From contig NZ_CP119566.1 in assembly GCF_029277445.1 (NCBI RefSeq), forward strand, positions 1,986,001 through 2,050,000: a stretch of 64,000 bases of DNA. The letters run 5' to 3'. Source of the DNA: Pararhizobium qamdonense (lineage in GTDB: Bacteria; Pseudomonadota; Alphaproteobacteria; Rhizobiales; Rhizobiaceae). The notes under the pieces are model-generated. The model was not told the origin of the DNA, did no database searches, and saw only the letters and a program-made list of their open reading frames with translations. Numbering within the stretch: position 1 is the stretch's first letter; the number at the start of each line of letters is the position of its first letter. Shown here piece by piece: positions 50,540 through 63,030 of the stretch. The translations under genes were made by a program, and so were the position numbers.

Positions 50540-52030
50540 TTACCGCTTCTGCCCCACGGCGCGCCCGGTACCGTCCGGCTTCGCCAGTCCCGCATGCGCC
50601 TGCGCAATCGCCTTCACCCGGTCGAGCACGGCAGCCGGGGCGGGCACGGCCTTGCTCTCCTTGGAGGAGACATGCAGCATCATCTGTTCGGCTGTCGCCA
50701 CTGCCTCGTTGGTGGCGGCGTTGTAGATGGTCGAGAAGATGTGCAGGCGCTTCTCGTCATAGGAGAGGATCTGGCAGGTCGAGTACAAGGCATCGCCCAG
50801 CTTGGCTTCGCCGAGATTGCGGATGTGGGTCTCGACCGTGTAGTAGCTGTGGCCGTTCTTGACATAGTCCAGATCGACGCCGATCAGGCGCAGGATGCCG
50901 TCGGACGTGTCGCCGAACACCTGCAGGTAGCGGTGCTCGGTCATGTGGCCGTTGTAATCGACCCAGGCGGCGTTGACCTTGGTATCGAGGATGCGGATCG
51001 GCTTGGCCTCGCCCAGATCGGTCTGCGGCTTTTCAGCGTTGGCCCAGAGGCTGTCTTCGAAATCGGCGAGCAGTTTGCCTGCACCCCAGCCCTTGCCGCC
51101 ATCGCCGCTTTTCAGCGCATGCATGATGCCGACGAGGTTTTCGTCGCGGATGCGCTCAAGATCGCGGATACCGCGGGCGCCGGATTGCGCGTCCGACTGG
51201 CCGGCAATCTTGTTGACCAGTTCGTCGTCGAGATCGACAACGTCCATCAGCTTGGTCCAGGGCCAGGAGAGGCAGGGGCCGAACTGGGCGAGGAAATGGC
51301 GCATACCGGCTTCGCCACCGGCAATGCGGTACGTTTCGAACATGCCCATCTGCGCCCAGCGCATGCCGAAGGAATAACGGATGACGTCGTCGAGCGTTTC
51401 GGTATCGCAGATATCGTCCTTGATCAGCCACAGACCTTCGCGCCAGACGGCTTCGAGAAGACGGTCGCCGACGAACGCCTCGATCTCTTTGTTGATGATG
51501 ACGCCCTTCATGCCGATCGGCGCAAGCTTGGCTTTTGCGTCCTGCAGCGTCGCCTTGCTGGTCTTTTCGCCGCCGACCAGTTCGGCGAGCGGCAACAGGT
51601 AGACCGGGTTATAGGGATGGGCGACGAACATGCGCTCGGGATGCTTCATGTCGCGCTGCAGGTCCGTCGGCATGATGCCCGACGTGGACGAGCCGATCAG
51701 GGCTGTTGGCGAGGCGGCGGCATCGATCTGGGTGATGACGTTGCGCTTCAGATCGACCCGCTCGGGCACGCTTTCCTGAATCCAGTCAGCACCTTCAACC
51801 GCTTCCTCAACGCTTTTGACGAAGGTGAGTTTTCCCTTTGCAGGCAGCGGCGCCATGGTCAGCATGGCATAGGCGCGCTCGGCATTGGCGAGCACTTCAC
51901 CGACGATGCGTTCGGCTTCCGGATGCGGATCGAACATATTGACGTCGATGCCGGCCAGAAGAAAGCGCGCCGCCCAGGCCCCGCCGATAACGCCGCCGCC
52001 GATACAGGCTGCCTTGGTGATTTTGGTCAT
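50540..52030 (-). CDS. cdhA: L-carnitine 3-dehydrogenase fused to betainyl-CoA thioesterase
   Basis: 496 residues from the ATG at 52030. The N-terminal part (1 to about 320) is a 3-hydroxyacyl-CoA dehydrogenase-like NAD enzyme: AACIGGGVIGGAWAARFL binds NAD, and STSGIMPTDLQRDM and FVAHPYNPVYLLPLAELV follow. The C-terminal part is a hot-dog thioesterase (AWVDYNGHMTEHRYLQVFGD). Rhizobial L-carnitine dehydrogenases are known as this exact fusion of about 495 residues; in Pseudomonas the two activities are separate (CdhA, CdhB). It oxidises L-carnitine to 3-dehydrocarnitine, and the thioesterase releases glycine betaine from betainyl-CoA made by the neighbouring BKACE enzyme. Confidence 0.93.
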   Translation of the reverse strand: MTKITKAACIGGGVIGGAWAARFLLAGIDVNMFDPHPEAERIVGEVLANAERAYAMLTMAPLPAKGKLTFVKSVEEAVEGADWIQESVPERVDLKRNVITQIDAAASPTALIGSSTSGIMPTDLQRDMKHPERMFVAHPYNPVYLLPLAELVGGEKTSKATLQDAKAKLAPIGMKGVIINKEIEAFVGDRLLEAVWREGLWLIKDDICDTETLDDVIRYSFGMRWAQMGMFETYRIAGGEAGMRHFLAQFGPCLSWPWTKLMDVVDLDDELVNKIAGQSDAQSGARGIRDLERIRDENLVGIMHALKSGDGGKGWGAGKLLADFEDSLWANAEKPQTDLGEAKPIRILDTKVNAAWVDYNGHMTEHRYLQVFGDTSDGILRLIGVDLDYVKNGHSYYTVETHIRNLGEAKLGDALYSTCQILSYDEKRLHIFSTIYNAATNEAVATAEQMMLHVSSKESKAVPAPAAVLDRVKAIAQAHAGLAKPDGTGRAVGQKR

Positions 52031-52082
52031 TGGTGTTCTACCCTCTTTCAAAATTCGGTCTGTCATTGGGCGGTGCGCGTGA

Positions 52083-52289
52083 TACCCCTCACCAAGTTCA
52101 TCCAGCCGATCGGCTGCGCCTCCCGGGGATGAACTATCCTCTCCCGCAAGGGGAGAGGAAACGTGCCGCAAGCTCCCGGTCCGCCGTAAAGCAAGGTGTT
52201 GCCGCGGTTCCTACCTCTCCCCTTGCGGGAGAGGATAGCAAGCCCGCACGAAGCGGAGCTGAGTGCCTGGGCGCGCTTGGTGAGGGGTA
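52083..52289. repeat. Palindromic repeat in carnitine operon (cdhA/BKACE gap)
   Basis: Outer arms TACCCCTCACCAAG (52083-52096) and CTTGGTGAGGGGTA (52276-52289) are exact reverse complements. Inside, CTATCCTCTCCCGCAAGGGG and CCCCTTGCGGGAGAGGATAG also pair. It is a different repeat family from the TTCTCCCC element, in the same operon. Confidence 0.85.
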
Positions 52290-52314: not shown

Positions 52315-53217
52315 CTACCGCTTCGTCAGCTTCAGCTTTTCACGCACTTCGGCCGGGCCGATGATCTTTGCGCCCATGCCTTCGATGACGCCGACGGCTT
52401 TTTCGACGAGCTGGGCGTTGGTGGCGAGCTGGCCCTTGCCGACGTAGAGATTGTCTTCCAGGCCGACGCGGACATTGCCGCCGGCGAGAACGGCTGCGGC
52501 GGGATAGGCGAGGGCGTTGCGGCCGATCGAGAAGGCCGAGAAGGTCCAGTTTGATGGCACGTTGTTGACCATCGCCATGAAGGTGTTGAGGTCATCCGGC
52601 GCGCCCCACGGAATGCCCATGCAGAGCTGGATCAAAACCGGATCCTCGATCAGGCCTTCTTCAACGAGTTGCTTGGCAAACCATAGATGGCCGGTATCGA
52701 AGGCTTCGATTTCCGGGCGCACGCCGAGATCGGTCATCATCTTGGCCATGGCGCGCAGCATCGAGGGCGTGTTGGTCATGACGTAGTCGCCGAGCGAGAA
52801 GTTCATCGTGCCGCAATCGAGCGTGCAGATTTCCGGCAGGCATTCGGCGATGTGGGAAACGCGCTCCGTCGCGCCCGCCATGTCGGTGCCGTTGGGATTG
52901 AGCGGCAGCGGGCTTTCCACATTGCCGAAAATCATGTCGCCGCCCATGCCGGCCGTGAGGTTGAGCACCACATCGACATCGGCGGAGCGGATGAGGTCGG
53001 TCACTTCCTTGTAGAGGTCGTTGCGGCGGCTCGGTGCGCCGGTCTCGGGATCGCGCACGTGACAATGCACGATGGCGGCACCGGCCTTGGCCGCATCGAT
53101 GGCCGAGGCTGCGATCTGTTTCGGCGATCTTGGCACATGCGGCGACTTGCCGGCGGTATCGCCGGAGCCGGTGACTGCACAGGTGATGAAAACGTCGCGG
53201 TTCATGCTCAGTGGCAT
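52315..53217 (-). CDS. BKACE family beta-keto acid cleavage enzyme (dehydrocarnitine cleavage)
   Basis: 300 residues with a strong GGGGAGG site before the ATG at 53217. The metal-binding HxH is in AAIVHCHVRDPETG, with the conserved block DVVLNLTAGMGG and the substrate region VGLEDNLYVGKG, where a Glu completes the Zn site. DUF849/BKACE enzymes react a beta-keto acid with acetyl-CoA to give acetoacetate and a new acyl-CoA. For 3-dehydrocarnitine the products are betainyl-CoA and acetoacetate. The cdhA fusion thioesterase next to it, and the CdhR-type regulator 111 bases away, support this. It is the first gene of the leftward operon. Confidence 0.92.
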   Translation of the reverse strand: MPLSMNRDVFITCAVTGSGDTAGKSPHVPRSPKQIAASAIDAAKAGAAIVHCHVRDPETGAPSRRNDLYKEVTDLIRSADVDVVLNLTAGMGGDMIFGNVESPLPLNPNGTDMAGATERVSHIAECLPEICTLDCGTMNFSLGDYVMTNTPSMLRAMAKMMTDLGVRPEIEAFDTGHLWFAKQLVEEGLIEDPVLIQLCMGIPWGAPDDLNTFMAMVNNVPSNWTFSAFSIGRNALAYPAAAVLAGGNVRVGLEDNLYVGKGQLATNAQLVEKAVGVIEGMGAKIIGPAEVREKLKLTKR

Positions 53218-53328: not shown

Positions 53329-54300
53329 ATGCTCGCGCCAAGCGAAGGGACCCAGCATATCGATCTGCTGGTGTTGCCGGAGACCAATCTGATCCTCGTC
53401 GCCTCGGTGATCGAGCCGCTTCGCGCCGCAAACCGCATTGCCGGAAAAGCGCTCTACGACTGGGCGATCTTCAGCCCGGACGGCCAGGCGATCGAGACCA
53501 AAAGCGGCATCCCGATCCCGGTTGCCGGGCCGTTCCGGCCGCAAAACGAGACGGCGCCGCTGTTTGTGCTGTCGAGCTATAACTGGCGGGCTTACGCGAC
53601 GACGCAGCTGAAAATCCTCCTGTCTCGAACCGCCCGGCATCGCGAGGTCATGGCGGGCATCGAGGCCGGCAGCTGGTTTCTGGCGGAAACCAGTCTGCTC
53701 GACAATTTTTCAGCCACCAATCACTGGGAGGATTTCGAGGATTTTGCCGCCGCCTATCCGCAGATCAACATGGTGCGCGAGCGTTTCGTCATCGATGGCA
53801 AGCGGATGACCACCGGCGGGTCTTTGCCGACACTCGACCTGATGCTGGAGCTGATCCGCCGCCAGCACAGCTATTCTTTGGCGCTCGAAGTGTCGCGCCT
53901 GTTCATCTACGAGCAGGAGCGCACGCGCGGCGACCTTTTGCAGATGCCGGCCATCGGCAATATGCGGATCGTCGATGCCCGTGTCGGGGCGGCGGTGAAG
54001 CTGATGGAAGAGACCGTCGATGCGCCCCTCACGCTCAGCCGTCTTGCGCGCCGGGCGGGGGTCAGCGCCCGCCATCTGCAGGACCTGTTTCAGGAGACGA
54101 TGGGTGTGGCGCCGCATGCCCATTACCTGGCGCTCAGGCTGAATGCAGCCCGGCGCAACGTGATCGAGACCCGGGCCGATTTTGCCGATATTGCTGCGGC
54201 CACCGGCTTCAATTCGTCTTCCGCCTTCTCGCGCAGCTATCGCGCCCATTACCGCGAAAGCCCGAGCGAAACGCGCAGGCGGGTCAAGCTGAAAGGGTGA
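53329..54300 (+). CDS. cdhR: GATase1/DJ-1-AraC family regulator, CdhR-like
   Basis: 323 residues. A DJ-1/PfpI-like N-terminal domain (QHIDLLVLPETNLILVASVI) lacks the nucleophile Cys: where active members have Cys, it has GIEAGSWFLAE, so it serves as a ligand sensor. Two AraC HTH motifs follow (LTLSRLARRAGVSARHLQDL and FADIAAATGFNSSSAFSRSY). CdhR and GbdR of Pseudomonas, which sense carnitine and glycine betaine, have this architecture. Divergent from the carnitine operon with 111 bases between, it should activate that operon when carnitine is present. Confidence 0.88.
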   Translation: MLAPSEGTQHIDLLVLPETNLILVASVIEPLRAANRIAGKALYDWAIFSPDGQAIETKSGIPIPVAGPFRPQNETAPLFVLSSYNWRAYATTQLKILLSRTARHREVMAGIEAGSWFLAETSLLDNFSATNHWEDFEDFAAAYPQINMVRERFVIDGKRMTTGGSLPTLDLMLELIRRQHSYSLALEVSRLFIYEQERTRGDLLQMPAIGNMRIVDARVGAAVKLMEETVDAPLTLSRLARRAGVSARHLQDLFQETMGVAPHAHYLALRLNAARRNVIETRADFADIAAATGFNSSSAFSRSYRAHYRESPSETRRRVKLKG

Positions 54301-54383: not shown

Positions 54384-55754
54384 TCAATCGCGCGGATCGG
54401 TGCTGCCGGATATCTCATCTGCAAGCATCATGCCGAGCATCGCTTCCGCCACCTGCCGGGAAAGCGCGTTCTTCTGCCATGCCAGCGACAGGCTCTGCAT
54501 ATAGCTGTCCCCCAGCCGGCGCATGGCAGGGGGATTTCGCACGCGGGCGGCGGAGCTCTCCGGCAAGACCGAAAGATAACCGTGGTCCATCACCAGATTG
54601 AGGATGACCGGGATCGAATCGACTTCCGTCAATGTCAGCCGGTTGCGCTCCTGTTCGGTGAGCGTCGCCTCGATGAAATGCGCTGCCTGCTGGCGCAGGC
54701 CGCTTTTCAGGCTGGGCACGGCAATCGGATGCGATTGCAGCAATGCGGCGATGTCGTTGCCGTGTTTGGCAAAGAGCGCGGGATGACCGGCTAGCGCCAG
54801 CGGCGTGCGTGAGATCAGGCTGCCTTCGAACTCGGACGGGAAGGTTTCAAGATCGAGCAGCACCACGTCGAAGCGGCGGTTTTTCAGCCCGGCGATCAGT
54901 TCGTCGGCGGTGGTGCTGGACACGAACAGCGGCTGGCGCGGGCGGGCGCGATGCCACTTGGCGGTCAGCGCCGCCAGCATGCGGGCGATCTCGCTTTCGG
55001 GCCCGAGCGGCATGACCGAGCCGAACCGCCAGGTGGCGGCCGCGCGGCGGAACCGGTCGCCGGATGCGCGCGACAGCCTGCGCCAGATCTCCAGCAGGTT
55101 TTCGACGGTGGGGATCGCCGCCAGTCCTTCCGCCGTGCAGGTGATGCCGGATGGCGAACGGGCAAGCAGCGTGTATCCGAGGTCGCGTTCCAGGTCGTTC
55201 ATCTGCCGCGTCAGTTGGGGTTGGCCGGTCGCCGATGCCTTGGCGGCGGCGCGAATGCTGCCGCTGCGGGCGACAGCGATGAAGCGTTCGAGTGCGATGA
55301 GGCTGATCGAGGGACAGGGAGTCTGAGCGTTGGCGATGGGCTCCGTCTTCTCCACGACAGGAAGAAGTGCCGGGCGAATGCGAGGCGATGAGGGGGGTGT
55401 TCCGGCGCGTTCGGAGTTTGCCGTCCCCCTTATCCGGCCCTGCGGGCCACCTTCTCCCCGCTGGGGAGAAGAGGGAGCCTGCCGATGGGCCTCGGGCCAC
55501 AATGGGGTTCTGGGCTGTAAGAGGGATTGGATCGCCTCGGTCGCCGCCGCAAGGTCGGCCATCCGGCTTTGCGCTTCCAGCGTCGGCACGAGATTGCCGC
55601 GTTCGCGCCGCACGAGCGGGACGGCGATGGCGGCTTCGAAGCGTTTCAGTGCCGCGCTGACGCTGGCGGGCGGCCTGCCGCTTGCCTTTGCGGCGCGCCG
55701 GATTCCGCGCTCTGCAAGGATCGCGTGGACAAGGGCAAGGGTGGCAATGTCCAT
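54384..55754 (-). CDS. LysR-family regulator with two HTH domains and a repeat-derived insert
   Basis: 456 residues from the ATG at 55754, well above the LysR norm of about 300. Residues 1-80 form one LysR-type winged HTH (IRRAAKASGRPPASVSAALK). Residues about 92-137 are the in-frame translation of a palindromic repeat (SSPQRGEGG, PPSSPRIRP). Residues about 150-210 form a second LysR HTH (GSIRAAAKASATGQPQLTRQ), and the rest is the effector domain. It is read divergently from the predicted ergothioneine genes, so it probably regulates them. The upstream extension of the open frame beyond 55754 is antisense to the lyase gene and not real. Confidence 0.8.
   Translation of the reverse strand: MDIATLALVHAILAERGIRRAAKASGRPPASVSAALKRFEAAIAVPLVRRERGNLVPTLEAQSRMADLAAATEAIQSLLQPRTPLWPEAHRQAPSSPQRGEGGPQGRIRGTANSERAGTPPSSPRIRPALLPVVEKTEPIANAQTPCPSISLIALERFIAVARSGSIRAAAKASATGQPQLTRQMNDLERDLGYTLLARSPSGITCTAEGLAAIPTVENLLEIWRRLSRASGDRFRRAAATWRFGSVMPLGPESEIARMLAALTAKWHRARPRQPLFVSSTTADELIAGLKNRRFDVVLLDLETFPSEFEGSLISRTPLALAGHPALFAKHGNDIAALLQSHPIAVPSLKSGLRQQAAHFIEATLTEQERNRLTLTEVDSIPVILNLVMDHGYLSVLPESSAARVRNPPAMRRLGDSYMQSLSLAWQKNALSRQVAEAMLGMMLADEISGSTDPRD
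55345..55480. repeat. Palindromic repeat element inserted in frame within the LysR gene
   Basis: The right part reads TTATCCGGCCCTGCGGGCC then CACCTTCTCCCCGCTGGGG, identical in pattern to the TTCTCCCC/GGGGAGAA intergenic repeats. The left part retains GCGAGGCGATGAGGGG and a degenerate TTCTCC...GGAAGAAG arm. Here it lies inside a continuous open frame. Confidence 0.8.
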
Positions 55755-55817: not shown

Positions 55818-55846
55818 TTGTGTTTCATTTTTGGGATATAACACAA
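55818..55846. promoter_or_regulatory. Candidate operator upstream of the ergothioneine genes
   Basis: TTGTGTT (55818-55824) and AACACAA (55840-55846) are perfect inverted 7-base arms with a 15-base AT-rich spacer. They lie 46 bases before the lyase ATG and 63 bases from the divergent LysR start, as expected for a LysR binding site shared by both promoters. Confidence 0.45.
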
Positions 55847-55892
55847 AGCTCGATATTGGGCATAGCATGGCGCCAACAAGGTGAGTCAAAGC

Positions 55893-57431
55893 ATGCATGC
55901 ATCGGTGAAAGCCATCGTCCTCAACGGCAATCCGCTGGATTTCTCCACATTGGAGAGAATCGGCTCCGGACTGTTCGTGCCCGCCGTTGCCGAGCAGTCG
56001 TTCGAACGGGTGGAGGTGGCGCATAAGGTGATTGCCGATCGCATCGCCATGGGCCTGCCGGTCTACGGCGCCAATACCGGCGTCGGCTCGATGAAGGACC
56101 GGCTGTGGACGGTGGATGATCTCGCAGAATTCAACACGGCGCTGGTCAAGGCCCATCATTTCGGCACCGGCCCGCTGTTTTCCAAGTCCATCGTGCGCAA
56201 GGCCATCGCCATCCGCATCAACACGGCGCTCGGCGGCCATACCGGCTGCAGCGTCGATCTTATCAAGGCGTTCCTGGCGCTTTTGGAGCGCGGCGTCGTG
56301 CCCGCCGTGCACCGGCATGGCTCGATCGGCTGCGCCGATATCGGGTTGATGGGGCAGGTTGCCTCGGTTTTGACGGGCACCGGCGAAGCCTTTTTCGAGG
56401 GCGAGCTGCTGAGCGCCGGCGAAGCTTTGCAACGTGCAGGGCTTCAACCCTTCGTCATGCTGCCGCGCGACGCGCTGGCGGCGCTGAGCGTCAACGCAAC
56501 GGCCTTTGCGGCGGCTGCCGACGTGCTGCGCGAAGCAGCCTCGGCCGTGCGCGTGCTGATGACCACCGGGCTGATGTCGTCGCTGGCGCTCGGGGCCTCG
56601 GCCGATCCGTGGCGGGTGGCGGCGACTTTGGGGACGCGCGGCGAGGCGCTGGTTGGGTCCTGGCTTTACGGCCAGTCCGATTGCGTCGACTGGCCGCTGC
56701 CGACGGCGATCCATGATCCGCTCAGCCTGCGCATGACCGCGCAGGTCTTCGGCGCCGCCGTCGATACGCTGCTGGTGGCGGCCGAACGGCTGGTCGATGC
56801 GACCTATCTGTCGGATGACAATCCGGTGGTGCTGGGCGGACAGGTACATGCGTCCGGCGCCTCGCTGCCCTTGACCACGACGCTCTATATCGAGACGGCG
56901 CAGATCGCCTTTTCGCATGTGGCGCGCAATGTCTTGAACCGTTGCATCCTGCTTTCCAATGGTGTGCGGCGAAACCTGCCGGTCAATCTGGTCGCGCCGG
57001 GCGAGATTGCCAGCGGGCTTGGGCCGCTGATGAAGCTGGTGGTGGAACTCTACATGCGCGTCCAGTCGCTGGCGGTGCCGCTTTCGGCGCAGTCGATCGT
57101 GGTTGCCGGCGGGCTGGAGGAGGAGGCGACCTTCCTGCCGCTGATCGTCGAGCGCATGGAAACGCAGGTGCGCGATCTCCGGCAGATGGCGGCGATCGAG
57201 GCGATGCTGTCGGCCCAGGCTGTCGATCTTCTGGGCGATACGCCGCAGGGCGTTACGCAGATTGCCTATGAGCGGGTGCGGGCCGTCAGCCCGATCTACC
57301 TGAAGGACCGGCCGCTTTCCAAGGAGATCGAGCATCTCCATCATGAATTTGCCTGCGGCCGCCTGCTGGAGGCGATCGTGGCGGCAGCACCCATGCCCGA
57401 ATTTGACGATTTCTTCGCGCTCGCAAAGTGA
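55893..57431 (+). CDS. HutH/PAL-superfamily lyase lacking the MIO triad; probable ergothionase (ergothioneine trimethylamine-lyase)
   Basis: 512 residues from the ATG at 55893 (AAGGTGA upstream; a GTG at 55881 is in frame). The fold is that of histidine ammonia-lyase: VYGANTGVGSM (Tyr58, as in HAL VYGINTGFG) and LSVNATAF (Asn). HAL has GSVGASGDLAPL; here the segment is GSIGCADIGLM, one residue shorter, so the Ala-Ser-Gly that cyclises to MIO is absent. The HAL Tyr in YSLR is Leu277. Ergothionases are HAL homologues that eliminate trimethylamine from ergothioneine without MIO, giving thiourocanate. The four following genes fit the rest of that pathway. Enzyme class is firm; substrate is inferred from context. 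Confidence 0.75.
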   Translation: MHASVKAIVLNGNPLDFSTLERIGSGLFVPAVAEQSFERVEVAHKVIADRIAMGLPVYGANTGVGSMKDRLWTVDDLAEFNTALVKAHHFGTGPLFSKSIVRKAIAIRINTALGGHTGCSVDLIKAFLALLERGVVPAVHRHGSIGCADIGLMGQVASVLTGTGEAFFEGELLSAGEALQRAGLQPFVMLPRDALAALSVNATAFAAAADVLREAASAVRVLMTTGLMSSLALGASADPWRVAATLGTRGEALVGSWLYGQSDCVDWPLPTAIHDPLSLRMTAQVFGAAVDTLLVAAERLVDATYLSDDNPVVLGGQVHASGASLPLTTTLYIETAQIAFSHVARNVLNRCILLSNGVRRNLPVNLVAPGEIASGLGPLMKLVVELYMRVQSLAVPLSAQSIVVAGGLEEEATFLPLIVERMETQVRDLRQMAAIEAMLSAQAVDLLGDTPQGVTQIAYERVRAVSPIYLKDRPLSKEIEHLHHEFACGRLLEAIVAAAPMPEFDDFFALAK

Positions 57432-57438
57432 GACACGG

Positions 57439-58818
57439 ATGTCCGACTTCGATCTGGTTTTGAAAGGCATGGTGGTTCTGGCCGACCGCGTCGTCGAAGG
57501 CGGATTTGTTGCCGTGCGCGAAGGCAAGGTGGCGTTCGTCGGGCAGGGCGCAATGCCTGAGGCACGCGAGCGCCATGATCTCGGCAGCGCTCTGATCCTG
57601 CCCGGCGCCATCGATGCGCAGGTGCATTCGCTGTCGCAAAAGGACCAGGAGGATTTCATCTGGTCGACGCGTTCGGCTGCGGCAGGCGGAGTCACCACCA
57701 TTGTCGATATGCCCTATGATGAAGGCGATCTGGTCTGCTCGGCCGATGCCGTCCGGCGCAAGATCGATCACGCCGGGAAACAGGCGCGCGTTGATTTCGC
57801 GCTCTACGGCACGATCGACCCGGAAGAAGGCCCGGCGCGGATCGGCGAAATGGTCGAGGCCGGCGTTGCCGCCTTCAAGTTTTCCACATTCGGAACGGAC
57901 CCGAAACGGTTTCCGCGCATTCCGGCCGGGCTCTTGGAAGATTGTTTTGCAGCGATCGCGCCGACCGGGCTGGCGGCCGGTGTGCACAATGAGGATGACG
58001 AGGCGGTGCGGGCTGCGATCGGCAAGGTGAAGGCTGCGGGTATCACCGATTACCGGGCCCATGGCCTGTCGCGTCCGCCGCTGACGGAGCTGCTTGCCAC
58101 CAACCAGATCTATGAGACGGGGGCGGCGACCGGCTGCCCGGCCCATGTCGTGCATTGCTCGGTCGGGCGCGGCTACGATATTGCCAGCGCCTACCGTGCC
58201 CAGGGTTTTCGCGCCACCATCGAATGCTGCATCCACTATCTCGTTCTCGACGAGGAAAACGACGTGAAGCGGCTGGGTGGCAAGGCCAAGATCAATCCGC
58301 CGATCCGGCCGCGCGCCGAGGTGGAAAAACTCTGGCGCCATGTGGCCGATGGCAAGGTGACCATGGTTTCCACCGATCACGTCAGCTGGTCGGAAAACCG
58401 CAAGACCAATCCCGATATGCTCGCCAATGCATCCGGTGTTCCGGGGCTGGAGGTGATGATCCCGCTGTTCGTCAAGGGGCTCCTCGAGCGCGGCATTTCC
58501 TTGACGCGTGCCGCCGAACTGATGTCGCTCAATCCCGCCCGCCATTTCCGCCTTGATCACCAGAAGGGCTCGCTGGAGGAAGGCAAGGATGCGGATATCA
58601 CCGTGCTGACGGCCGAACCCTATGACTACAACGCAGCTGATAGTGGCAACAATGTCGTCGGCTGGTCGCCCTATAACGGCATCCGTTTGCCCTTCCGGGT
58701 GGCGGCGACCTATAACCGGGGCGTGCAGGTTTTCGACGGTAGGGCGGTTCTGGCCGCGCCGGGCAGCGGTCAATTCATCCGGCCGCTTGCCAGCCTGCCG
58801 CTGCGCGAGGCCGTCTGA
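57439..58818 (+). CDS. Hydantoinase/dihydropyrimidinase-like amidohydrolase; probable hydantoin-5-propionate hydrolase
   Basis: 459 residues from the ATG at 57439, 7 bases after the lyase stop. It is an amidohydrolase-superfamily (beta/alpha)8 barrel: the carboxylated Lys in AAFKFSTFGT, His in GVHNED and VVHCSVG, and the catalytic Asp in VSTDHVSW are present. The first metal motif reads DAQVH, so the first His of the usual D-x-H-x-H is Gln61; only His63 remains. This occurs in some allantoinase- and dihydroorotase-like proteins. In the ergothioneine pathway it would open hydantoin-5-propionate to N-carbamoyl-glutamate. Its stop overlaps the next start by 1 base (TGATG). Confidence 0.75.
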   Translation: MSDFDLVLKGMVVLADRVVEGGFVAVREGKVAFVGQGAMPEARERHDLGSALILPGAIDAQVHSLSQKDQEDFIWSTRSAAAGGVTTIVDMPYDEGDLVCSADAVRRKIDHAGKQARVDFALYGTIDPEEGPARIGEMVEAGVAAFKFSTFGTDPKRFPRIPAGLLEDCFAAIAPTGLAAGVHNEDDEAVRAAIGKVKAAGITDYRAHGLSRPPLTELLATNQIYETGAATGCPAHVVHCSVGRGYDIASAYRAQGFRATIECCIHYLVLDEENDVKRLGGKAKINPPIRPRAEVEKLWRHVADGKVTMVSTDHVSWSENRKTNPDMLANASGVPGLEVMIPLFVKGLLERGISLTRAAELMSLNPARHFRLDHQKGSLEEGKDADITVLTAEPYDYNAADSGNNVVGWSPYNGIRLPFRVAATYNRGVQVFDGRAVLAAPGSGQFIRPLASLPLREAV

Positions 58819-60086
58819 TGGCTGTTGCCGATACCAACCTTCCCGTCGATCCCGTGCGCATCGCCGATATCGTCAAGGGCCTTGCCCGCATCACCGAGCC
58901 GGACAAGCCCTATACGCGGCGGGCGTTTACGCCGCTGTTTCTGAACGGCCGCGCGTTTCTGGAGCAGCGCCTCAGGGCTGCAGGGCTCGAAACCCGGATT
59001 GATGCTTCGGGAAACCTGATCGGCCGCCGCAAGGGGCGCAAGTCGGCGCTCGGGACGATCATGCTGGGATCGCATTCCGATACGGTGCCGGAAGGCGGCC
59101 GTTTCGACGGCATTGCCGGCGTTGCCGCAGCGCTTGAAGTTGCCCAGGCTTTGAACGATGCCGGTATCCGGCTCGATCACGATCTGGAGATCGTCGATTT
59201 CCTGGCCGAGGAAGTGTCGATTTTCGGCGTCTCCTGCGTCGGCAGCCGTGGCCTTGCGGGATTGCTCCCGGATGGGTGGCTGAGCCGGACGCACGAGGAG
59301 CTGACGCTACGGCAAGGGATTATCGATGCCGGTGGCGACCCCTCGCGGCTGGCGCGGCAAAAACGCTCGGATATCCGGGCTTTTCTGGAGCTGCATATCG
59401 AGCAGGGGCCAGTCCTTGAAACGGAGCGCTGCGATATCGGCATCGTCACGGCGATTGCCGGGATTACCCGCATCGAAATCCTCTTCGACGGCCAGGCCGA
59501 TCATGCCGGAACCACGCCGATGGGCCACAGGCGCGATGCGCTGGTGGCGGCGGCTCGTTTGGTTGGCGAGGTCGAGCGGCTCGCCACGGACTATGCGAAG
59601 GGCGAGGGGCATTTTACCGCGACGGTCGGGGAATTTTCCATCGAGCCGAATGCCGCCAATGTCGTGCCGTCACGCGCCCGCATCCTGATCGATGCGCGTG
59701 CCGAGCTGCGGCCGGACATGGAGCGGTTCATCGCCGGGATCGATCAGCTCGCCGTCGATATCCAGCGCGAGACCGGTGTGTCGATCGCGTCGCCGAAACT
59801 GATTTCTGATAATTTTCCAACACCCGCCGATCCGCTCGTCATGGCCAATCTGGAACAGGCATCCGACCGTGTGGGTGCAAGACGCCGCCGCATGGCGTCG
59901 GGTGCCGGGCATGACACCGCCTGGATGGCGCGGATTTCCAAGGCCGCGATGATCTTCATCGCCTGCCGCGACGGGCGTTCGCACACGCCGGACGAATGGG
60001 CTGAAAACGACGATATCGCGCTCGGTGCTGCGGTTCTGTTCGAGGCTGTGCGCAAACTCGATAGTGATCTACAGGGAGAGCAGTGA
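58818..60086 (+). CDS. M20-family carbamoylase/allantoate amidohydrolase-like; probable N-carbamoyl-L-glutamate hydrolase
   Basis: 422 residues. Metal-binding and dimer motifs of the HyuC/AllC family are in order: MLGSHSDTVPEGGRFDGIAG, LAEEVSIFGVSCVGSRGLAG, LELHIEQGPVLE, DHAGTTPMGHRRDA and SGAGHDTAWMARI. These enzymes remove the carbamoyl group as CO2 and NH3 using two divalent metals. Placed after a hydantoinase-like gene and before a thiohydantoin desulfurase-like gene, it most likely turns N-carbamoyl-L-glutamate into L-glutamate. It overlaps both neighbours by 1 base (TGATG), so the set is tightly coupled. Confidence 0.82.
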   Translation: MAVADTNLPVDPVRIADIVKGLARITEPDKPYTRRAFTPLFLNGRAFLEQRLRAAGLETRIDASGNLIGRRKGRKSALGTIMLGSHSDTVPEGGRFDGIAGVAAALEVAQALNDAGIRLDHDLEIVDFLAEEVSIFGVSCVGSRGLAGLLPDGWLSRTHEELTLRQGIIDAGGDPSRLARQKRSDIRAFLELHIEQGPVLETERCDIGIVTAIAGITRIEILFDGQADHAGTTPMGHRRDALVAAARLVGEVERLATDYAKGEGHFTATVGEFSIEPNAANVVPSRARILIDARAELRPDMERFIAGIDQLAVDIQRETGVSIASPKLISDNFPTPADPLVMANLEQASDRVGARRRRMASGAGHDTAWMARISKAAMIFIACRDGRSHTPDEWAENDDIALGAAVLFEAVRKLDSDLQGEQ

Positions 60087-61174
60087 TGGGCCGGATACTC
60101 ACGGAAAAGGACGTCGAAGCGGCCGTCAAGGGCGGCTCGGTCTATGCGGCCGGCGGCGGCGGCTGGGCCGATCATGGCCGCATGCTGGGTTATGCTGCGG
60201 TCTCGATCGGCAAGCCGGAACTGGTCTCGATCGATGAGCTTTCCGATGACGAATGGGTGGCGACGGCGGCCGCCATCGGTGCGCCGGCCTCGACGACGCC
60301 TTGGGAAATGCGCGGGGTCGATTATGTCAAGGCGGTGCAATTGCTGCAGGAGGCCTTGGGCGAAAAGGTTTCCGCGCTGATGGTCGGGCAGAACGGCAAG
60401 TCCTCGACGCTGAACGGCTGGCTGCCTTCGGCGATCCTCGGCACCAAGGTTCTCGATGCCGTCGGCGACATGCGGGCGCATCCGACCGGCGACATGGGAT
60501 CGATCGGCATGGCGGGGTCGCCCGAGCAGATGATCCAGACGGCAGCCGGCGGCAATCGCGACGAGAACCGCTATATCGAGCTTGTGGTGCGCGGCGCAAC
60601 CGCCAAGGTGTCGCCGATCCTGCGCACCGCGTCCGACATGTCCGGCGGCTTCATCGCATCGTGCCGCAATCCGCTGCGCGCGTCCTATGTCCGCAAGAAT
60701 GCAGCGCTCGGCGGCATTTCGCTGGCGCTTTTGCTCGGCGAGGCGATCATCGCTGCGGAAGGCAAGGGCGGCAGCGCCATCATCGACACGATCGCCAAAA
60801 CCACCAACGGCACGATCCTTTCGGAAGGCGTCATCACTGACAAATCCGTCGTCTATACCAGGGAAGCCTTCGACATCGGTACGGTGACGCTCGGCACGGG
60901 TGATGACGCAACGGTCCTTAACGTCATGAACGAGTACATGGCCGTCGAGGATGCCGCAGGCACACGGCTTGCGACCTTCCCGGACGTCATCACGACGCTG
61001 TCTGAAGACGGCGAGCCGCTGAGTGTGGGGCAGTTGCAGGTGGGGATGCGGATCTTCGTGCTGCATGTGCCGAAGTCGGTCATTCCGCTGGCATCGAGCG
61101 TGCTTGATCCGAGCGTCTATCCTCCGGTGGAGAAGGCGATGGGGATTGAATTGGCGCGGTATGCATTGGGCTGA
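60086..61174 (+). CDS. DUF917 / S-methyl-thiohydantoin desulfurase family; probable thiohydantoin-propionate desulfhydrase
   Basis: 362 residues from the ATG at 60086 (a GTG at 60083 is in frame). The family is recognised by YAAGGGGWADHGRMLGY at the start, VGQNGKSSTLNGWLPSAIL, VGDMRAHPTGDMGSIGM and the SDMSGGFIASCRNPL block. Pfam ties DUF917 to S-methyl-thiohydantoin desulfurase. In the ergothioneine pathway, 3-(5-oxo-2-thioxoimidazolidin-4-yl)propionate must lose H2S to give hydantoin-5-propionate, and this is the only gene in the cluster free for that step. Role is inferred from family and position. Confidence 0.75.
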   Translation: MGRILTEKDVEAAVKGGSVYAAGGGGWADHGRMLGYAAVSIGKPELVSIDELSDDEWVATAAAIGAPASTTPWEMRGVDYVKAVQLLQEALGEKVSALMVGQNGKSSTLNGWLPSAILGTKVLDAVGDMRAHPTGDMGSIGMAGSPEQMIQTAAGGNRDENRYIELVVRGATAKVSPILRTASDMSGGFIASCRNPLRASYVRKNAALGGISLALLLGEAIIAAEGKGGSAIIDTIAKTTNGTILSEGVITDKSVVYTREAFDIGTVTLGTGDDATVLNVMNEYMAVEDAAGTRLATFPDVITTLSEDGEPLSVGQLQVGMRIFVLHVPKSVIPLASSVLDPSVYPPVEKAMGIELARYALG

Positions 61175-61188
61175 GGCGCTTGGGGCAT

Positions 61189-61333
61189 CACCCCCCTCTT
61201 TCCCTCCGGGACATCTCCCCCTCAAGGGGGGAGATTGGCCGCATCGTCGGTGCCACCCTACAAACAGGAGTAGGGAAAAAGAATGATCTCCCCCTTGAGG
61301 GGGAGATGTCACGGAGTGACAGAGGGGGGTGAA
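61189..61333. repeat. Palindromic repeat between DUF917 and urocanase-like genes
   Basis: Outer arms CACCCCCCTCT and AGAGGGGGGTG are reverse complements. Inner ACATCTCCCCCTCAAGGGGG and CCCCCTTGAGGGGGAGATGT pair as well. It occupies most of the 194-base gap between two genes of one pathway on the same strand. Confidence 0.85.
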
Positions 61334-61368
61334 GCCTCCCCGGAAAAGTCTTTAAAGAGGACAACACC

Positions 61369-63030
61369 ATGCCCAAACCAAACCCTCGTCACCCCAATTT
61401 CCCCATCCCCGGCGGGCCGGAGCTGCGCGCCAAGGGGTGGCGGCAGGAGGCGTTGCTCAGGCTTTTGGAAAATGTGCTGTCGGTTGGCGAGGATCCGGAC
61501 AATCTGATCGTCTATGCGGCGCTCGGAAAGGCGGCGCGCAACTGGGCTTCCCACAGGGCAATCGTCAAGACATTGCTTGAGATGGACGAGGACCAGACGC
61601 TGGTGATCCAGTCCGGAAAGCCGGTCGGGCTGCTCAAGACCCATGCCAAGGCGCCGCTGGTGATCATGGCCAATTGCAATATCGTCGGCCAATGGGCAAA
61701 GGCCGAAGTGTTCTACGAGCTGGAAAAGCAGGGGCTGATCTGCTGGGGCGGGCTGACGGCGGGCGCGTGGCAATATATCGGCAGCCAAGGCGTCATCCAG
61801 GGCACCTATGAAATCTTCATGCGCATCGCCGAAAACCGGTTCGGCGGCGATCTTGCCGGACGGTTCATCCTGACGGCCGGGCTGGGCGGCATGGGCGGGG
61901 CGCAGCCGCTGGCCGGGCGCATGGCGGGGGCGGCGATCCTCTGCATCGATATCGACCCGGTACGCGCTGAAAAGCGCAGGGACATCGGCTATCTCGAACA
62001 TGTGGCACCAGATCTTGATACCGCGCTGGCGATGATCGACCAGGCCGTCAGGGAAAAGCGCGCCACCTCCATCGGCCTTGTCGGCAATGCGGCGGCCCTT
62101 TATCCGGAAATCGCCAGGCGCGGCATCGTGCCGGATATCGTCACCGACCAGACGTCTGCCCATGACCTCGTCTATGGCTATGTGCCGAAGGGCATGAGCA
62201 TCGAGGAGGTCAAGAGGCTGAGGGTCGACGGGCAGGGGCAACTGATGGCCGCCAGCCGCGCCTCTATCGTCGATCATGTCAAGGCGATGCTCGAATTCCA
62301 GGCCAAGGGCTCGGAAGTTTTCGACAATGGCAACCTGATCCGCACCCAGGCGCGCGAGGGCGGCGTCACCAATGCGTTCGACATCCGTATCTTTACCGAG
62401 GCCTATCTGCGGCCGCTGTTTGCGCGTGCCATCGGGCCCTTCCGCTGGATGGCGCTGTCGGGCGAGGAGAGCGATATCGCCCGCATCGACGATCTCTTGC
62501 TGGAGATGTTTCCCGATAACAGGATCGTCACCAACTGGATCAAGCTGGCGCGCGAAAACGTGCCGTTCGAAGGACTGCCCGCCCGTATTGCCTGGCTTGG
62601 CCATGGCGAGCGCACGCAGCTTGCGGTCGCCGTCAATGCGCTGGTCGCGTCCGGAGACCTCAAGGGGCCGATCGCGTTTTCCCGCGACCATCTCGATGCG
62701 GGCGCCATGGCGCATCCGAATATCATGACCGAGCGGATGAAGGACGGTTCCGACGCCATTGCCGACTGGCCGCTGCTCGACGCCATGCTGCTCTGCTCTT
62801 CCATGGCCGATCTCGTCGTCGTCCATTCCGGCGGCGGCGGCTATGCCGGTTACATGACCAGCTGCGGCGTCACCGTGATTGCCGACGGCACGGAAGGTGG
62901 GGCGGAACGGCTCAGCCATGCGCTGACCAACGACACATCGCTCGGTGTCATCCGCTATGCCGATGCCGGTTATGAGGAATCGGCCGATGAGATCGAGACG
63001 AAGGGGATCGGGTATATCGCGCTCGACTAG
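61369..63030 (+). CDS. Urocanase-family protein; probable thiourocanate hydratase
   Basis: 553 residues, the usual urocanase length. NAD-binding and family blocks are present: MANCNIVGQWAKAEVFYEL, YIGSQGVIQGTYE, TAGLGGMGGAQPLAGRMAGA, FSRDHLDAGAMAHPN and VVHSGGGGYAGY. The cysteine near 410 that is typical of urocanase (LPARICW) is Ala408 here (LPARIAW), and RDHLDSGSVASPN is altered. It therefore looks like a paralogue acting on a different ring, such as thiourocanate. It is on the same strand as the lyase and hydantoinase genes. Canonical urocanase activity cannot be excluded from sequence alone. Confidence 0.78.
   Translation: MPKPNPRHPNFPIPGGPELRAKGWRQEALLRLLENVLSVGEDPDNLIVYAALGKAARNWASHRAIVKTLLEMDEDQTLVIQSGKPVGLLKTHAKAPLVIMANCNIVGQWAKAEVFYELEKQGLICWGGLTAGAWQYIGSQGVIQGTYEIFMRIAENRFGGDLAGRFILTAGLGGMGGAQPLAGRMAGAAILCIDIDPVRAEKRRDIGYLEHVAPDLDTALAMIDQAVREKRATSIGLVGNAAALYPEIARRGIVPDIVTDQTSAHDLVYGYVPKGMSIEEVKRLRVDGQGQLMAASRASIVDHVKAMLEFQAKGSEVFDNGNLIRTQAREGGVTNAFDIRIFTEAYLRPLFARAIGPFRWMALSGEESDIARIDDLLLEMFPDNRIVTNWIKLARENVPFEGLPARIAWLGHGERTQLAVAVNALVASGDLKGPIAFSRDHLDAGAMAHPNIMTERMKDGSDAIADWPLLDAMLLCSSMADLVVVHSGGGGYAGYMTSCGVTVIADGTEGGAERLSHALTNDTSLGVIRYADAGYEESADEIETKGIGYIALD

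Follow-up and report, generated by a model that had tools for sequence, protein, structure and literature searches.

A predicted ergothioneine-utilisation operon with a divergent ergothionase-type lyase in Pararhizobium qamdonense

A cluster of five intact, full-length genes, all on the plus strand, lies at positions 55893 to 63030 of a 64,000-nucleotide stretch of Pararhizobium qamdonense DNA (contig NZ_CP119566.1, positions 1,986,001 to 2,050,000; hereafter the window). Its content points to the utilisation of ergothioneine, a mushroom antioxidant produced by fungi and certain bacteria, whose role as a trimethylamine source is under debate. The open reading frames (ORFs), checked against family models, encode a lyase without the 4-methylidene-imidazol-5-one (MIO) triad, a hydantoin-5-propionate amidohydrolase (ErtD), an N-carbamoyl-L-glutamate amidohydrolase (ErtE), a desulfurase of a family named DUF917 in some annotations, and a urocanase-like hydratase (Table 1). 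For the ErtD-type gene the longest ORF begins at 57343, yet it is the ATG at 57439 that agrees with the family match; the desulfurase gene has an alternative ATG start at 60086. An initial annotation of the window had described start-stop overlaps between the genes; these are present at two of the four junctions (ErtD/ErtE and ErtE/desulfurase) but not at the other two, where the lyase and ErtD genes are 7 nt apart and a 194-nt gap containing an inverted repeat precedes the urocanase-like gene.

Table 1. Features of the cluster, its surroundings and the trimethylamine genes of the same genome
Feature	Position	Strand	Basis
Predicted ergothionase (ergothioneine trimethylamine-lyase), MIO-less, no signal-peptide-like N-terminus	55893-57431	+	PF00221 Lyase_aromatic; best solved relative 6s7j; signatures, tree, context
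Hydantoin-5-propionate amidohydrolase (NCBIfam ErtD)	57439-58818	+	Amidohydro_1; NF058538, 789 bits, cut-off 600
N-carbamoyl-L-glutamate amidohydrolase (NCBIfam ErtE)	58818-60086	+	Peptidase_M20; NF058540, 603 bits, cut-off 520
Thiohydantoin desulfurase (S-Me-THD-like family)	60083-61174	+	S-Me-THD_N/C; NF058529, 601 bits, cut-off 440
Thiourocanate hydratase (urocanase family)	61369-63030	+	Urocanase; NF058530, 1043 bits, cut-off 930
LysR-type regulator, divergent, two tandem helix-turn-helix (HTH) domains and substrate-binding domain	54384-55754	-	HTH_1 x2 and LysR_substrate
Predicted operator/promoter element: TTTGGGATATA (55830-55840), GCATAGCAT (55860-55868)	55830-55868	+	Conservation in intergenic stretches
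Inverted repeat, 47-nt arms, 91% complementary	61184-61336		Between desulfurase and hydratase genes
AraC-family regulator beside carnitine genes	53329-54300	+	GbdR model 210 bits, under cut-off 480
Keto-acid cleavage enzyme relative	52315-53217	-	NF052387 234 bits, under cut-off 382
Carnitine 3-dehydrogenase	50540-52171 (longest ORF; model begins at residue 48)	-	NF005716, 897 bits, cut-off 592
Trimethylamine monooxygenase, trimethylamine N-oxide (TMAO) demethylase and dimethylamine-oxidation genes	L097:4638-13160 (G000:C1 ~1968637-1977159)		~70 kb upstream of operon

All genes but that of the lyase score above the cut-offs of NCBIfam equivalogs named for steps of ergothioneine breakdown, which bears out the hydantoinase-like, carbamoylase, DUF917/desulfurase-family and urocanase-like genes of the initial annotation. 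The nearest solved relative of the hydratase is 7ned (817 bits). Pathways for S-substituted or oxidised relatives of ergothioneine also exist, as NCBIfam holds S-methyl models and the reference list of PMC13405746 cites an ergothioneine-sulfonate pathway for Agrobacterium radiobacter, and the cluster might act on S-methyl-ergothioneine or ergothioneine sulfonate and not on ergothioneine. Both S-methyl models, however, stay below their cut-offs (NF058531, 742 bits of 880 for the hydratase; NF058532, 279 bits of 450 for the desulfurase) while the plain models are above theirs, and the Agrobacterium tumefaciens plasmid cluster that does reach the S-methyl cut-offs carries another lyase type (GSVGYLTH) and a molybdopterin reductase. 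The S-methyl pathway was ruled out on these curated cut-offs and the sulfonate variant was weighed only indirectly; a function in the breakdown of such relatives seems improbable.

The histidine-utilisation (hut) pathway likewise proceeds through a lyase and then a hydratase and ends in glutamate. The lyase and the urocanase-like protein belong to the HutH and HutU superfamilies, and the latter scores 681 bits with the broad hutU model (cut-off 375), so a duplicated ordinary hut set has to be considered. In the alignment, however, the lyase has GSIG-CA-DIGLM where the genome's own HutH has GSVG-ASG-DLAPL, confirming the absence of the MIO triad noted initially; it reaches 206 bits with the HutH model TIGR01225 (cut-off 539) and, with the ASG triad missing, does not qualify as HutH. 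Unlike hut, the cluster lacks the HutI, HutF and HutG steps, and true hutH, hutU, hutI, hutG, hutF and hutC, all above cut-off, form a complete cluster elsewhere in the 6.24-Mb host genome (L056). A desulfurase and a hydantoinase are not known to take part in urocanate breakdown by the established hut pathway, and these two genes of the cluster do not fit it. A hut duplication was ruled out by the hutH model score and the separate complete hut cluster, and we regard it as extremely unlikely. For the same reason the initial statement that hut genes are absent holds locally but not for the genome, and as an argument against histidine use it is weak because the complete set lies elsewhere.

Next to the true hut genes lies a gene (L056:5832-7325; G000:C1 ~858831-860324) for a second HutH-like protein, which has GSAGYLSH and no ASG triad. 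This protein shares 54% identity with the lyase encoded in the Agrobacterium S-methyl cluster, and its neighbours are ATP-binding cassette (ABC)-transporter-like ORFs, recognised by eye, an N-methyltryptophan-oxidase-like flavin adenine dinucleotide enzyme and an agmatinase/HutG-like protein.

Given that no ergothionase model was among the NCBIfam matches of the lyase, separate tests were needed for this protein. It has the aromatic amino acid lyase fold, and its closest solved structure by sequence is the ergothionase of Treponema denticola (6s7j, 198.7 bits), with the best histidine lyase at 144.3 bits. The alignment revealed a triad one residue shorter (G-C-A-D-I for G-A-S-G-D-L) and the motif GVGxxK[DE] in the lyase, the ergothionase and EADI-type lyases that occur close to the same downstream genes alike; SxN for NG and DDNP for TDNP are also common to the lyase and the ergothionase type, and both have D[PQ]LSxR where canonical histidine lyases have DxYxxR. 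The pattern S[IM]G[CT]AD[IL]GLM, with CA or TA in place of the triad, occurs in all 120 homologues listed of 426, the window's own included, and the named relatives among those listed are labelled histidine ammonia-lyase or aromatic amino acid lyase. A tree of 24 rows was built from 15 lyases of the window's CADI type, four EADI-type lyases including those of T. denticola and the Burkholderia type, and HutH and HutH2 proteins, with no tyrosine or phenylalanine lyases. The CADI and EADI types split from HutH and HutH2 with support of 100/99, the former making one group at 100/100 and the latter at 91/88; the clustering with histidine lyases that the initial annotation had named as evidence against an ergothionase was not seen in this tree. 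By a crude hydropathy test, a signal-peptide-like hydrophobic N-terminus was found in all three fetched EADI proteins (Burkholderia, Paracoccus, whose start is not fixed, and G096), and no such start was seen in the four CADI lyases examined (the window type) or in the T. denticola ergothionase. The lyase thus has those ergothionase features that were examined and not those of histidine ammonia-lyases, and its assignment as a predicted ergothionase is supported.

The lyase is also tied to the thiourocanate hydratase across genomes. In a family sample of 151 genomes, the lyase (E <= 1e-60) was found in 13 and a thiourocanate hydratase above its NCBIfam cut-off in 16, and all 13 lyase genomes carry the hydratase on the same contig, 5.5-9.2 kb away. 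The chance of this overlap under random assignment is 3e-16, a value that does not allow for relatedness. In G011 the lyase match is in two pieces and the gene may be broken; among the three hydratase genomes without a CADI lyase, G096 has the EADI type, and G049 and G068 have neither. The hydratase is rarer further out (5/385 class-sample and 6/398 phylum-sample genomes, the window's genome being counted in each).

Four steps by curated cut-offs and the lyase by its ergothionase features lend weight to the initial proposal of an ergothioneine-to-glutamate degradation cluster, and we consider it very probable that the cluster is an ergothioneine-utilisation operon whose products would be glutamate, ammonia, sulfide and trimethylamine. 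The genes, their families and their context are what was observed here; the reactions, inducer and flux deduced from them could be as follows. The lyase would eliminate trimethylamine from ergothioneine to give thiourocanate, which the hydratase would convert into thiohydantoin propionate; the desulfurase would swap the sulfur for oxygen, releasing sulfide and forming hydantoin-5-propionate, whose ring ErtD would open to N-carbamoyl-glutamate, and ErtE would turn this into glutamate, CO2 and ammonia. A five-step bacterial ergothioneine catabolism was reportedly described by Beliaeva, Leisinger and Seebeck in 2021 (ACS Chem Biol 16:397). The substrate-to-glutamate logic appears to be the same, and the four downstream families match NCBIfam equivalogs named for its steps.

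Several points weigh against this assignment, beginning with the missing ergothionase model mentioned above. The predicted-fold comparison places the same ergothionase chain first, but ahead of a histidine lyase by 1.2 Z only, a weak indication on which we do not rely, and the active-site loops of the structure model are of low confidence. Identity between the window lyase and the EADI-type (ergothionase-type) lyases is 25-31%, and the lyase tree joins long branches, as its program warned. The LSxR motif occurs as well in two other lyase-like proteins, the second HutH-like protein of the genome (DALSLR) and the Agrobacterium lyase of the GSVGYLTH type (DPLSLR), and D[PQ]LSxR is therefore not diagnostic alone. 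Finally, neither the cluster nor its surroundings revealed an importer dedicated to ergothioneine. Past the window end there are a general solute-binding protein, ABC-transporter-like ORFs (by eye), an RpiR regulator, an amino acid permease and a relative of N-formylglutamate amidohydrolase, but nothing links any of these to ergothioneine and the idea of a dedicated importer among them was rejected.

The trimethylamine released by the predicted lyase could be consumed by a trimethylamine monooxygenase (NF058570, 852 bits; cut-off 675) and a TMAO demethylase (NF053776, 1256 bits; cut-off 1100), whose genes lie in the same genome beside those of a DmmA-family subunit and a haem-dependent N-demethylase-like subunit. 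The monooxygenase is present in 6 of the 13 lyase genomes and 17 of the 138 others (p 0.0055 by Fisher's test, uncorrected for relatedness). A search of the same strain for the EgtB route to ergothioneine, covering EgtB only, gave no match above cut-off (best 64 bits of 360).

Comparison with known systems reveals both shared and divergent traits. The T. denticola ergothionase was reportedly described by Maurer in 2019 (PDB 6s7j/6s7q). It resembles the window lyase in fold, in a shortened triad without MIO and in GVGxxKD, SxN, DPLSxR and DDNP, but is 30% identical to it, has EG instead of CA and stands on a separate tree branch. The Burkholderia arboris plasmid cluster (L065) has the same four downstream equivalogs above cut-off plus an ergothionase-type lyase; this lyase, however, is 30% identical to that of the window and has a signal-peptide-like N-terminus, and the gene order is different, with the ErtD- and ErtE-type genes on the opposite strand. 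An ergothionase of Burkholderia sp. HME13 is referred to in PMC13405746. The A. tumefaciens pAt cluster (L066:5986-18709) similarly encodes a DUF917-family protein, a urocanase-like hydratase, a Zn hydrolase, an amidohydrolase and a lyase, but the models that it matches are those for S-methyl thiourocanate and for S-methyl thiohydantoin, and besides its own lyase type and reductase it contains a glutathione-transferase-family gene and a glycine-betaine-type ABC transporter.

Forty-nine further loci were picked by exact matches to short lyase peptides and are therefore close relatives (lyase identity 68-100%). They are spread over Rhizobium, Pararhizobium, Sinorhizobium/Ensifer, Shinella and other Rhizobiales, the nearest being Rhizobium sp. 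Root483D2 with an identical lyase (100%). The LysR gene and all five cluster genes were matched in 48 of them, the contig of L006 ending short of the hydratase. Some genes of L046, L048 and L051 are covered only in part by their best single match and may be frameshifted. The carnitine genes that had been noted alongside are confirmed by the carnitine 3-dehydrogenase, and this gene, the keto-acid cleavage enzyme and the AraC-type regulator lie upstream in 47/49 loci, with the exceptions (L016 and L051) at contig ends. Carnitine genes were not seen around the CADI-type clusters L073-L077. From its position the keto-acid cleavage enzyme relative may have a role in carnitine breakdown, and the AraC-family regulator is provisionally labelled CdhR. 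Genes downstream of the cluster vary between relatives. Of the 48 loci in which both flanks are present, 33 have a TfoX_N-type gene (~109 aa; e.g. L013:15308-15637) between desulfurase and hydratase, and in the other 15 it was not found; the inverted repeat of the window occupies this place.

A census of 24 other loci with hydratase and desulfurase relatives (L065-L077 and L079-L089) revealed different lyases within the fetched stretches: a CADI-type lyase at 12 (L084 by BLAST only), an EADI type at three and the GSVGYLTH type at one (L066). At one locus (L083:6814-11591) a relative of the canonical ASG-type lyases stands directly beside the desulfurase and thiourocanate hydratase genes; no ErtD or ErtE match was found in its fetched stretch, and it can be speculated that this locus serves a 2-thiohistidine pathway.

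No lyase was found in the fetched stretch of the remaining seven loci (L067, L068, L069, L071, L072, L080 and L086). All four downstream genes are matched in five of these; L080 is without an ErtE match, and the desulfurase match of L086 falls into several pieces, perhaps because the gene is broken. The whole genomes of L071, L072 and L080 (G049, G068 and G434) yielded only canonical ASG lyases, and for the other four a lyase elsewhere is possible, since the search covered the plasmid record only. Tripartite ATP-independent periplasmic (TRAP) transporter genes lie near L067 and L068. These clusters suggest that thiourocanate itself may be a substrate in some bacteria, and they speak for a reading in which the operon of the window, too, serves mainly for thiourocanate from other organisms, the lyase being an add-on with another or minor role. 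Against it, the lyase is the first cluster gene in 49/49 close relatives, loci that were found with the lyase itself, and we judge this reading very unlikely for the window, where ergothioneine remains the most probable substrate.

The divergent regulator recorded initially is indeed present, as a LysR-type protein with tandem HTH domains. A set of 60 loci was searched for its N- and C-terminal halves, made up of the 49 close relatives and 11 from the 24 other loci, of which 10 had been chosen for a LysR hit. Both halves were present in 59; the miss is L086, and L070 and L074, with weaker LysR hits, were left out of the count. The two halves are in different frames in L046, and L076 has a single HTH_1 stretch in Pfam. 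In the window, as in several relatives, the HTH domains are joined by a long linker (domain starts 435-480 nt apart, versus ~255-280 nt in most loci), and the extra linker sequence looks by eye like a rhizobial repeat read in frame. In the family sample, with a maximum of 11 LysR candidates scored per genome, a relative (E <= 1e-25) was found in 13/151 genomes and adjoins the lyase in 10 of these, or in 10 of the 16 genomes with the hydratase. In G128 and G029 the relative is on a different contig, in G067 it occurs without an above-cut-off hydratase, and it was not found in four hydratase genomes (G088, G096, G049 and G068). A universal tie of the tandem-HTH LysR to the pathway is weakened by this sample. 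Nothing obvious on a wider occurrence of tandem-HTH LysR proteins outside this setting was found among the literature matches listed.

Upstream of the first gene, TTGGGATAT is conserved in 49 of 50 intergenic stretches and is followed 15-25 nt on by GCATA[AG] in 46 of the 50. The element has no other match in the window with up to one mismatch allowed (0.2 expected). Among the other loci, one of three 9-base forms of the element occurs within 200 nt of the first gene in 8 of the 18 examined (of 24) and was not found there in 10; four of the eight matches are part of TGGGATATCCCA, and one of the eight loci, L089, is a close relative of the window cluster. We infer that the element is a putative LysR operator, through whose TTTGGGATATA part the regulator would most likely turn the operon on, with thiourocanate or ergothioneine as the probable signal.

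Tentatively, the conserved unit may be a four-gene thiourocanate pathway to which differing lyases are attached, with lyase-less strains living on thiourocanate that neighbours with an ergothionase release, and a thiourocanate-binding tandem-HTH LysR as the shared control in many of them. Cytoplasmic CADI-type lyases would then perhaps be the form of rhizobia and their relatives, and exported EADI-type lyases that of Burkholderia and one Paracoccus. No lyase was found close to the clusters of a second Paracoccus, a Thalassospira, a Neorhizobium and several other genomes. We regard this picture as possible rather than probable.

Since the pathway has been published and its families are curated, the cluster is a further member of a known pathway type, and its initial assignment is right in substance. 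No paper on the rhizobial cluster was among the literature matches listed, most subscription journals being outside the scope of the search. Four features may be new: the branch of divergent lyases, the regulator with tandem HTH domains and its element, the constant presence of carnitine genes alongside, and the clusters that lack a lyase. A 2026 paper (PMC13405746) reported that a search with the Burkholderia ergothionase gave similarities to ammonia-lyases only, and cautioned that divergent homologues could escape such a search; the CADI-type lyase appears to be a divergent branch of that sort. Genomic context together with the GSIG[CT]ADIGLM motif provides a simple means to recognise it, and the lyase-less clusters make the hypothesis of cross-feeding directly testable.

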